The position numbers were made by a program, and so were the translations under genes. From a virus, in the IMG/VR virus record IMGVR_UViG_3300022752_000241, positions 1-32,815 of that record: DNA of 32,815 nucleotides; one strand, written 5' to 3'. Below the pieces are notes generated by a model, which was not told the DNA's origin, ran no database searches, and worked only from the letters and a program-made list of their open reading frames with translations. This document shows, piece by piece, positions 8,665-15,702 of the stretch (positions are counted from its first letter, which is position 1; every line of letters starts with the position of its first letter).

Positions 8665-8698
8665 AAAAACCCCCTACAACAATGAAGCGTAGGGGGTT
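8665..8698 (-). terminator. Intrinsic terminator of the ncRNA
   Basis: CCCCCTAC and GTAGGGGG form an 8-bp stem around an 11-nt loop. On the minus strand it is followed by TTTTT, so it ends transcripts coming from higher coordinates; the plus side lacks a T run. Confidence 0.8.
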
Positions 8699-8927
8699 AG
8701 TATGAATAGGTGGATTTCGTTTTACCACCAACGCATAGCCACCAGGTTCTCTAGCGATTATCTGCGTACCTGCCGTTGAGTTTTCCACTCGGTTGATTAG
8801 ACCCGACAGTGCCTTCTCCCTGTTGGCACAGAGATTCAGCCATATTCCGACTGACTTGCAATTCAGCCGTTTGTGAATTGTCGGGACTTGAACCCGATGT
8901 TTGCCTGACCAAACAATTCTCCCTTGA

Positions 8928-8984
8928 CTATCCAGCCAAGAATTCTTCAGCACTATCTAGTGCCTTAGAAATATTGTATTTCAT
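8928..8984 (-). CDS. 18-residue peptide inside the ncRNA
   Basis: MKYNISKALDSAEEFLAG follows an AGGA five bases before its ATG. It looks like an amphipathic helix rather than random sequence. It may make the ncRNA a dual-function or attenuator-type RNA, or be chance. Confidence is low. Confidence 0.3.
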   Translation of the reverse strand: MKYNISKALDSAEEFLAG

Positions 8985-9161
8985 ATTTCCTAACTTGTCA
9001 AATCCAATTGTGAGTTGGCTCGCTGTTTGTTTCAACTACTTGGATATAGAGTCTGATTCATTCAATAATATTCTTGAACTTCACATCGTCGCACTTTTTG
9101 TTACCTCACAAAACTAGGGAGTGCCCTAACCGTTTTGGCAATTTAACTTGCTAGTAAAAAG

Positions 9162-9190
9162 ATAATACAAAACTATTTTATTTTTGTCAA
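9162..9190 (-). promoter_or_regulatory. Sigma70-type promoter TTGACA-17-TATTAT
   Basis: On the minus strand TTGACA (9190-9185), exactly 17 bases, and TATTAT (9167-9162). The predicted start is the A at 9155. It is the best promoter in the window and drives the ncRNA. Confidence 0.8.
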
Positions 9191-9200
9191 CTATTATTTG

Positions 9201-9271
9201 TGGACTGTGTAGATTTGCACTACCGACTACTACCTACCGAATCGACTCGTAGCCTATGGCTACGCCAGTCC
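9201..9271 (-). ncRNA. Cloverleaf-like RNA element A
   Basis: The 71-nt segment is closed by GGACTG/CAGTCC plus a terminal A. Inside are GTAGCC-ATA-GGCTAC, a weaker CGATT/AGTCG stem, and a T-like arm GTAG-TGCAAAT-CTAC. The topology is that of a tRNA, but the first arm lacks a D-loop, no seven-base anticodon loop is present, and the T-like loop has G at the second position. Confidence 0.5.
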
Positions 9272-9329
9272 TTGGAGATTCCGTTGCCTAGGACGGGTAG
9301 ACCGCTTTACGCTCCTTTGTCTACAAGCG

Positions 9330-9412
9330 TGGACTGCGAGGAATCGCACCTCGGAAACTCCATACGGAGCACCTCTCGCTACTTTATCCATGGTAGTCAA
9401 GTAGCACAGTCC
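9330..9412 (-). ncRNA. Cloverleaf-like RNA element B
   Basis: An 83-nt segment with the same GGACTG/CAGTCCA closing helix as A and C. Arm one is a perfect 7-bp GCTACTT/AAGTAGC stem, arm two GCTCC-GTAT-GGAGT, and arm three CGAGG-TGCGATT-CCTCG. It begins six bases after the stop of the membrane-protein gene at 9419-9664. Between B and A (9272-9329) are further small inverted repeats (GTAGAC/GTCTAC). Confidence 0.5.
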
Positions 9413-9418
9413 TAAAGT

Positions 9419-9664
9419 TTATTTAGTCTTTCTCTTAGAGATGGCAATACCTAAATCAAAAAGACCTAGAGTAATAGCAATTGGCAAAAGTGGCAAACTA
9501 TAAAAAGCAACAAACATCATAACCCTCGCAGCATCACTAACTGCTGCGTGAGAGTTGACATTGAAACCTGCTAAAACATAGACTGTGCTAATTGCTAGTA
9601 GTGGAATTAGTCCTAAAACAATTCCAGTCTTGCGTAATACTTTTTGTACTTTATCTTTATTCAT
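9419..9664 (-). CDS. Two-helix membrane protein
   Basis: 81 residues: a basic N-terminus, a hydrophobic helix at about residues 14-33, a short polar loop, a second helix at about 46-72, and a basic tail (KRKTK). A weak purine-rich AGAGAAAG precedes the ATG. It sits between RNA elements C (upstream) and B (downstream), 33 and 6 bp away, so it is probably on the same transcript. No family was recognised; holin-like or superinfection-exclusion roles are only possibilities. Confidence 0.5.
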   Translation of the reverse strand: MNKDKVQKVLRKTGIVLGLIPLLAISTVYVLAGFNVNSHAAVSDAARVMMFVAFYSLPLLPIAITLGLFDLGIAISKRKTK

Positions 9665-9697
9665 CTATTTTTCTTTCTCTATTATTTGGTTGTTGCG

Positions 9698-9761
9698 TGG
9701 ACTGTGTAGATTTGCACTACCAACTTCGAGAGTTGACTTTAGCCCAAGGGCTAACCAGTCC
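9698..9761 (-). ncRNA. Cloverleaf-like RNA element C
   Basis: 64 nt closed by GGACTG/CAGTCC plus A. Arm one is TTAGCC-CTTG-GGCTAA, arm two TCAAC-TCTCGAA-GTTGG, and arm three GTAG-TGCAAAT-CTAC. The last 23 nt equal those of element A, while arm one differs in sequence but keeps full pairing. It is too short and lacks a D-loop for a normal tRNA. Confidence 0.5.
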
Positions 9762-9815
9762 TGAAACTAAGAACCCTAATGTCAAAGCAATAGGGGGAAT
9801 CCTACTCTCAGTTTC
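9762..9815 (-). ncRNA. Cloverleaf-like RNA element D
   Basis: 54 nt closed by a 7-bp helix GAAACTG/TAGTTTC followed by A, abutting element C with no gap, as in processed RNA arrays. Inside are GTAGG/CCTAT or the alternative CCCTA/TAGGG. Between it and the tmRNA (9816-9878) are further hairpins: CCTAG/CTAGG, GAGGT/ACCTC and CCCC/GGGG. Confidence 0.4.
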
Positions 9816-9878
9816 TAAACGCCTAGCCTTGCGACTAGGGTGAGGTACGAGACCTCAATGCCCCTAACGGGGTCATCG

Positions 9879-10230
9879 TGGAGATGAGGGGAGTCGAACC
9901 CCTGTCCTGAAAGGTTTATATGTTCTTCTACACGCTTAGGCAGTTTGCTTTGTGTTCCCGATGGTTGACCTGCCAGACATCGAGTCAGATTCAATTACGG
10001 TTTGAATCGTTACCGCACTGCTAGTTGTTCTCTTTATTTAAAACCTAGATGCCCAGCGAGAACTACTGCTTTTCTAGGGGCAAATGCGAACGCAACCTAA
10101 CTAAAGATTACGCAGCAAGAGCGAATGCGGAACGAGATTCAGCATTTATTGTTTTAGCGGATTCAAGAGAGACCGCCATCTCTGCGTGCTTCACCATACT
10201 AAAGTCTCCCAGTCGAAACCAGGCATCCCC
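9879..10230 (-). ncRNA. ssrA: tmRNA (transfer-messenger RNA)
   Basis: The 352-nt RNA has the tmRNA hallmarks. The 5' end GGGGATG pairs with CATCTCC at the 3' end, with the G3-U70 wobble recognised by alanyl-tRNA synthetase. The D-like region contains TGGTTTCGACTGG, and the T-arm is AGGGG-TTCGACT-CCCCT. The tag reading frame ends in ALAA and a TAA at 10110-10108. With the resume codon GCT at 10143 the tag is AESRSAFALAA; an earlier GCT at 10158 would give AKTINAESRSAFALAA. CCA is not encoded after the discriminator A. The RNA would rescue stalled ribosomes with host SmpB and tag products for ClpXP-type proteolysis. A promoter lies at 10291-10263. Confidence 0.92.
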
Positions 10231-15498: not shown

Positions 15499-15702
15499 AT
15501 GGAGAACAAAGTAGAAGATACCGACTACGTATTAAATACTACTGACCGCTGCGACGCTTGTAATTCCCAAGCGTATGTTTACGTCAAACTTGAGTCAGGA
15601 GACTTACTATTTTGCCTCCACCACTGGACAGAGAATAAAGATTTATTATCTGCCCTTGCATTAGAAGTTCTGGATGAATCAGAACGTTTATTGGCTAGAT
15701 AA
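15499..15702 (+). CDS. DUF7455-like small zinc protein
   Basis: 67 residues with DRCDACNSQAYVYVKLESG and LLFCLHHWTENKDLL, ending DESERLLAR. The CxxC and CxHH pair would bind one zinc. This arrangement matches a small actinobacterial family usually annotated DUF7455, whose function is unknown. The gene has its own leaderless promoter and a terminator right after it, so it is a separate unit. Confidence 0.75.
   Translation: MENKVEDTDYVLNTTDRCDACNSQAYVYVKLESGDLLFCLHHWTENKDLLSALALEVLDESERLLAR

Follow-up and report, generated by a model that had tools for sequence, protein, structure and literature searches.

Phage tRNA clusters are usually annotated by tRNA finders. Some also hold other stable RNAs: RNAs C and D of phage T4 are not tRNAs, lie inside a tRNA cluster and can be likened, by description, to the tRNA-like structures (TLSs) reported here. 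Elsewhere, lncRNA tRNA mimics of the mascRNA type recruit RNase P, and tRNAs punctuate mitochondrial transcripts. RNase P, RNase Z and the CCA-adding enzyme all recognise the tRNA elbow, and tRNA mimicry elsewhere recruits RNase P for end maturation (PMC4810234). RNase P processes tmRNA precursors and phage RNAs, and the pseudoknotted 3' TLSs of TYMV and TMV are also among its substrates (PMC12710915). Here we describe a family of phage TLSs that escape tRNA finders completely. The family is almost certainly real and conserved, and it is new in that it is undescribed in Rfam and in the open-access PMC literature searched.

The RNA-gene region of the window

The window, meaning the whole 32.8-kb stretch of DNA analysed, is a virus record that encodes a ribonucleotide reductase (RNR), tail fibres, a DNA primase/helicase and a WhiB protein. 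Among named phages the nearest is Actinomycetia phage DSL-LC01 from Dishui Lake, whose RNR shares 74% identity with that of the window and which its authors regard as an actinobacteriophage (PMC10611076). Given this likeness and the assignment of DSL-LC01, the host of the window virus is most likely a freshwater actinobacterium. DSL-LC01 has no tmRNA, and a search of that phage with covariance model R2 (trained on elements A and C) found no TLS. Relatives include 80 IMG/VR loci whose RNR is 76-96% identical to that of the window.

An RNA-gene region spans positions 10230 to ~8665 of the minus strand and runs throughout in the direction of the tmRNA (Table 1). Its order is tmRNA, spacer I, hairpin D, element C, an 81-aa ORF, element B, module E, element A, a promoter-like site, a mini element, a manA RNA and a terminator-like hairpin whose loop exceeds the length range of the terminator scan. 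Pseudoknot E, the 46-nt mini element and the manA RNA did not figure in the original prediction. A blastn match (77% over 66 nt, E=6e-6) places a homologue of module I in locus L093, where it lies downstream of an H element. The DNA of the 81-aa ORF is 95% identical in L023/L111, and a Pfam search with this ORF gave no match.

Table 1. Features of the RNA-gene region and of related loci (positions refer to the window unless a locus is named)
Feature	Position	Strand	Evidence
tmRNA gene, tag AESRSAFALAA, array head	9878-10230	-	ARAGORN; Rfam RF00023, 126 bits
Module I, three-hairpin spacer between tmRNA and D	9816-9877	-	fold z=-3.7
Element D, single bulged hairpin directly upstream of C	9762-9815	-	fold z=-3.3, one stem
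Element C, tRNA-like structure, 64 nt	9698-9761	-	R2 65 bits, E=5.8e-13 over 1.1 Mb
81-aa ORF between C and B	9419-9664	-	start 33 nt after C, stop 6 nt before B
Element B, tRNA-like structure, 83 nt	9330-9412	-	covariation, homologues; starts 6 nt past ORF stop codon
Module E, H-type pseudoknot between B and A	9272-9329	-	covariation in 15 sequences
Element A, tRNA-like structure, 71 nt	9201-9271	-	R2 100 bits; R1 E=6e-5; covariation
Promoter-like site TTGACA-17-TATTAT, directly downstream of A	9162-9190	-	11/12 consensus positions; consensus match only
Second promoter-like site TTGACA-17-TACAAT, upstream of mini element and manA RNA	8973-9001	-	
'Mini' tRNA-like element, 46 nt	8874-8919	-	homologues in L005/L006 with different acceptor pairs
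manA RNA (RF01745), directly downstream of mini element	8699-8868	-	51.4 bits, E=6.2e-12; gathering score 55.2
Likely intrinsic terminator CCCCCUAC...GUAGGGGG-UUUUU closing the RNA region	8665-8696	-	read from sequence
Module F	L023 7362-7425; also L085, L094, L098, L099, L105, L115, L116, L119		
Element H	L093 966-1045, L094 ~1732, L097 ~1864, L112, L114 ~9196; changed middle part in L118, L119		
Type K TLS	L096 2002-2078 (also L148)	+	acceptor-blind structural search

Structure and conservation of the tRNA-like elements

Four cloverleaf-like elements, A to D, had been predicted in this region; A, B and C stand and D does not, which leaves three. A, B and C display the predicted closing helix GGACUG/CAGUCC with a 3' A, a first arm that varies in sequence yet remains paired, a second arm and a T-like arm. 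In A, arm 1 is CGUAGCC/GGCUACG, arm 2 is CGAUU/AGUCG and the T-arm is GUAG-UGCAAAU-CUAC. B has arm 1 GCUACUU/AAGUAGC with a 14-nt loop, arm 2 GCUCC-GUAU-GGAGU and T-loop UGCGAUU, while C has UUAGCC/GGCUAA, UCAAC-UCUCGAA-GUUGG and UGCAAAU. Against shuffled sequences, folding gives z = -4.0, -3.5 and -3.0 for A, B and C. The G-U pairs had pointed to transcription of the minus strand, and this strand indeed folds better than the plus strand (A -26.6 vs -19.2, B -33.0 vs -27.1, C -22.8 vs -21.0 kcal/mol); G-U pairs that replace A-U in relatives pair only on the minus strand.

D abuts C exactly, as predicted. It folds as one bulged hairpin (GAAACUGAGAG/UUCUUAGUUUC), has no homologue among 117 related loci and is not reported as a TLS by either covariance model, R1 (trained on B only) or R2. 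The single-stem fold, the absent homologues and the silence of both models rule it out as a fourth cloverleaf.

The elements are not ordinary tRNAs. ARAGORN and Rfam at gathering threshold call only the tmRNA and leave A, B, C and D uncalled. The tRNA models (ARAGORN, RF00005) give zero matches at these four positions even with E up to 10, and RF00023 gives no significant tmRNA match there. An anticodon loop of 7 nt with U33 is absent: the arm 2 loops have 11 nt (A), 4 nt (B) and 7 nt (C, UCUCGAA with C at 33). The D-loop G18 G19 is likewise absent, the arm 1 loops being AUA, CAAGGU, CUUG or 14 nt long with no conserved GG. All elements have a 7-nt T-loop, which reads UGCRAWU (AGCGAUA in L115) instead of UUCRANN, with G at position 55; generic T-loop geometry is plausible for UGCRAWU loops. 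The acceptor of A, B and C is a plain 6-bp helix that joins the 5' and 3' ends without a pseudoknot. With a T-stem of 4-5 bp, the GGACUG types reach 11 layers, often with a mismatch between the two helices, where a tRNA has 12. CCA is not encoded in A, B and C, nor in the adjoining tmRNA. ARAGORN, Rfam and the arm 2 loops thus exclude tRNAs with normal anticodons. Protein coding on either strand is also rejected, as lengths within types vary by 1-3 nt (64-67, 70-72, 80-83) while pairs covary.

A search pattern of T-arm plus 3' acceptor strand (GTGCRAWTCNNNNCAGTCCAC) matched 31 viral stretches. All except L084 hold a complete element, with the 5' acceptor strand GG[A/G]CTG at the right distance. 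They fall into types A (70-72 nt), C (64-67 nt; homologues in L093, L094, L095, L098, L099) and B (80-83 nt), plus two divergent elements (L086, L103). Across some 30 homologous instances on IMG/VR phage contigs the fold is maintained by compensatory changes (0/500 shuffles). In the B alignment 96% of cells are paired, four pairs are changed on both sides (for example UA to AU and CG to UA in arm 2, CG to AU in arm 1) and 0/500 shuffles reach the score; the A/C alignment likewise contains compensatory changes. Because these alignments are small and their sequences related, the shuffle counts should not be read as probabilities, but pairing is lost in every case when the partners are slid. The covariance models find each other's types. 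R1 finds A at E ~5e-5 to 2e-3 over 1.1 Mb as well as L086 and L103, and R2 detects the B element of L105 (E = 0.001). Across types (L086, L103, B, A/C) only the acceptor and T-loop are common, and arms 1 and 2 are wholly different; arm 1 of L086, for instance, is CCUGAGUC/GACUUGGG, eight pairs with a sequence unlike A's arm. Position -1 is A in 26/30 elements and N73 is A in 30/30, A73 lying inside the search pattern; N-1 and N73 are therefore mostly unable to pair.

The pattern requires the T-loop and CAGTCC, and their invariance might be an artefact. We therefore ran an acceptor-blind structural search on all phage loci collected, in which the ASCERTAINMENT control accepted any 7-bp acceptor followed immediately by an arm, together with a 4-bp T-stem that carries the loop TGNRANN. 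It returned only family members and one new element, type K, found as overlapping copies of one place. Type K, 96 nt from a B-type TLS, has acceptor GGACCAG/CUGGUCU, arm 1 CCCCGU/ACGGGG, arm 2 GCAGAU/AUCUGC and T-loop UGCAAAU, and alone combines a 7-bp acceptor with a 5-bp T-stem. Real tRNAs in the same phages have T-loops UUCGA or UUCAA. Since type K combines UGCAAAU with another acceptor and with unrelated arms, the U55-to-G change marks the TLS family. U55 may be dispensable in TLSs, the D-loop GG that it would meet being absent. At ~2415-2490 in L115, before module F and the B-type TLS with loop AGCGAUA, we observed a non-canonical tRNA-like RNA with a normal T-loop (CUAGG-UUCGAUU-CCUAG).

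That the elements are decaying tRNA genes, functionless pseudo-tRNAs left in a tRNA cluster, is a disfavoured and very improbable reading. They do lie among real tRNA genes and go unseen by tRNA finders, but compensatory substitutions in the variable arms and a near-invariant T-loop and acceptor in 30 instances on many contigs contradict decay.

To date, uncultured phage contigs are the sole source of the TLS family. One pattern scan of 85,000 bacterial and archaeal genomes gave 16 matches, none with the fold. R2 with strict filters found no structured match in 296 actinobacterial genomes, only one chance hit, and blastn against 50,697 phage records found no close relative. A 22-bit model match in one MAG proved to be an ordinary tRNA-Pro. 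A host or attP origin was rejected: no host tRNA gene with an identical 3' half was found, and the 16 genome matches lack the fold. It is similarly hard to credit that the elements are recombination sites, attP-like tRNA 3' ends or cassette junctions for an integrase with module order as a by-product, and we rate this as highly unlikely. Modules are indeed shuffled between TCCAC junctions. However, the T-arm/acceptor core has no structured match in the 85,000 bacterial genomes, so that no host attB is seen, and the covariation indicates selection on RNA pairing and not on DNA sequence only.

Pseudoknots, modular arrays and other RNAs

Module E is an H-type pseudoknot whose two crossing helices covary. 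P1 (GUAGAC/GUCUAC) crosses P2 (GGAG/CUCC), with a hairpin within the long loop. An alignment of 15 sequences has 99.3% of its cells paired and shows double changes in both P1 and P2 (score 0/500 shuffles); P2 also covaries in length (GGAG/CUCC, GAGAG/CUCUC, GGAAG/CUUCC). The topology suggested an HDV-like or other ribozyme, which we rejected since the known catalytic core is unmatched; ToxI-like repeats were rejected in the absence of tandem repetition. A second pseudoknot, module F (CCACGG/CCGUGG crossing GCAACUA/UAGUUGC), is interchangeable with E.

Mapped across 33 loci, the arrays are modular and nearly gap-free, and combine tmRNA, E or F, TLSs, real tRNA-Trp, -Leu and -Asn, and short ORFs. 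Examples are tmRNA-E-TLS-F-tRNA-Trp (L098), tmRNA-F-(G)-TLS(B)-E-TLS(A)-56 nt-tRNA-Leu (L085), tmRNA-F-145 nt-ORF-TLS(B)-E-TLS(A) (L023) and F-TLS-60 nt-tRNA-Trp (L099). The module after E is TLS A, B or C, tRNA-Trp (L114) or, in L003, another structured RNA; F leads into a TLS, module G or tRNA-Trp (L098, L116, L119). Gaps between modules are 0-4 nt; E-TLS is 2 nt throughout and F-TLS is flush. A stop codon lies 6-10 nt before the TLS or E in L023, L103, L110 and the window (at B), and a start codon 12-35 nt after the TLS in L006, L011, L022, L029, L035, L088, L103, L112 and the window (at C); this distance is 22 nt in six loci. Because E and F precede a TLS or a real tRNA-Trp alike, TLSs fill the slots of tRNAs, and this is the chief argument that the two share their processing. 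Covariation, cross-finding covariance models and these shared slots together bear out the reading of A, B and C as tRNA-like yet not normal tRNAs. Neither a lack of covariation in homologues nor a confident tRNA match, which the original prediction had named as contrary outcomes, was encountered when examined.

By analogy with the plant-virus UPD plus TLS and with Bacillus cereus tRNA-Other, E or F and the next TLS might stay joined as a composite regulatory RNA of ~130 nt, in which the TLS would stabilise the 3' end. The invariable spacing speaks for such an RNA, E P2 and the acceptor could stack, and tRNA-Other provides a precedent for a tRNA-like element within a larger regulatory RNA (PMC3399842). 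We nevertheless consider it distinctly unlikely, as E and F stand before real tRNA-Trp too and some TLSs have no E or F in front of them: in the window, B comes right behind an ORF and C right behind hairpin D.

Several other structured RNAs accompany the arrays. Element H, ~80 nt (GGGCYWGAAAUGGNGUCGAUUGC...CWGGUCCA), stands at the array head where other phages have tmRNA. Its acceptor retains G3-U70 while neighbouring pairs vary (CCUG/CAGG, CUUG/CAGG, CUAG/CUGG; read from sequences), and its 5' part is similar to the D-loop segment of tmRNA (UGGUUUCGAC). Two H-bearing records (93 and 94 kb) contain no tmRNA over threshold, and Rfam does not call H. As a lead, H may be a tmRNA tRNA-like domain without a message. 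A weak second tmRNA match in G014 is ordinary tRNA sequence.

The mini element has acceptor GAAUUGU/ACAAUUC, one small hairpin and a canonical T-loop, UUCAAGU. Its homologues lie at L005 15582-15642 and L006 ~15504-15548, and the acceptor differs between phages (GAAUUG/CAAUUC vs GGGUUG/CAAUCC). manA RNA (RF01745) is known from cyanophages and marine metagenomes. In these phages it sits inside the tmRNA/tRNA array, directly behind the mini element or a promoter, with no obvious 5' UTR position; homologues above threshold occur at L005 15650-15827, L006 15551-15728 and L035 4441-4621. Another conserved structured RNA of ~130 nt (AAGGCUCUUUACUGCUGAGUCCAC...), with no Rfam match, lies behind A or B (L005 15205-15330, L006 15140-15270, L023 8035-8170).

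Proposed transcript processing and comparison with known systems

A, B and C retain the 'top half' of a tRNA, namely the acceptor minihelix, T-arm, T-loop and discriminator A, and two plain hairpins replace the D and anticodon arms. Our best explanation, held with about even confidence, is that they are noncoding tRNA mimics in a stable-RNA operon that punctuate a polycistronic transcript via host RNase P and RNase Z. Host RNase P would cut 5' of GGACUG, and RNase Z or exonucleases would cut after the discriminator A. Cuts at the mimics would free the tmRNA, the E/F pseudoknot RNAs, real tRNAs and short mRNAs with defined ends, and a freed TLS may additionally act in trans. The mostly adenine N-1, A73, the T-loop and the slot shared with real tRNAs are consistent with A, B and C as candidate RNase P substrates. 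The 6-bp acceptor counts against punctuation, as does the missing D-loop GG that would complete the elbow recognised by RNase P and RNase Z. Processing alone also does not explain why several different TLSs occur per array beside a tmRNA that would be cut anyway.

The original prediction had offered two roles. The recruitment of host tRNA factors fits the acceptor/T-arm half that A, B and C conserve. A role as decoys for anticodon nucleases is unlikely, because these elements have no anticodon-like loop. A broader decoy or effector role in trans, in which a freed TLS would titrate or inhibit RNase P, RNase Z, the CCA-adding enzyme, EF-Tu, or a tRNA-targeting toxin or defence nuclease, could account for several distinct TLSs per array and for the conserved elbow-less top half. 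Phages do deploy tRNAs against tRNA-targeting defences (PMC10264068, PMC11555353). Those precedents, however, are real tRNAs, one with altered anticodon loops, whereas A, B and C have no anticodon loop. Most records carry 1-2 TLSs per genome at fixed processing positions, a better fit to use in cis, and the sequence indicates no particular target; we regard this role as rather doubtful. Tentative, and less likely than not, is the possibility that the arrays are combinatorial stable-RNA cassettes. In such cassettes TLS types would be shuffled with pseudoknot RNAs, real tRNAs and reduced tmRNA-like domains, and the matured mimics or pseudoknots would target host translation or defence in trans.

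If confirmed, a TLS family that retains only the acceptor/T-arm half offers a natural test of which portion of a tRNA actinobacterial RNase P, RNase Z and CCA addition require. It would also bear on why phages retain tmRNA-tRNA arrays. TLSs are one possible answer to the role of non-tRNA stable RNAs in phage tRNA clusters.

Compared with canonical tRNA (RF00005), the TLSs share the acceptor helix, the arm with a 7-nt T-loop, the discriminator A and the slot in phage tRNA arrays, but they have a 6-bp acceptor, UGCRAWU in place of UUCRANN, and neither a D-loop GG nor a U33 anticodon loop. With the tRNA-like domain of tmRNA (RF00023) they share the acceptor/T-arm half, a non-decoding nature and adjacency in the array. 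They differ in having no mRNA-like domain, tag or pseudoknot ring, and their acceptor usually carries A3-U70, not G3-U70. The 3' TLSs of plant RNA viruses (TYMV, TMV) are likewise viral tRNA mimics, sometimes behind an upstream pseudoknot, whereas the phage acceptor is a plain helix instead of a pseudoknot and the elements occur in multiple internal copies in a DNA phage. The proposed RNase P/Z logic, which sets the ends of neighbouring RNAs, is that of mascRNA-type mimics and of mitochondrial tRNA punctuation, although sequence and host are unrelated. Finally, tRNA-Other of Bacillus cereus is also tRNA-like, works outside translation and is part of larger RNAs (PMC3399842), but it is a cellular, single-copy, degenerate tRNA, in contrast to a covarying phage family.
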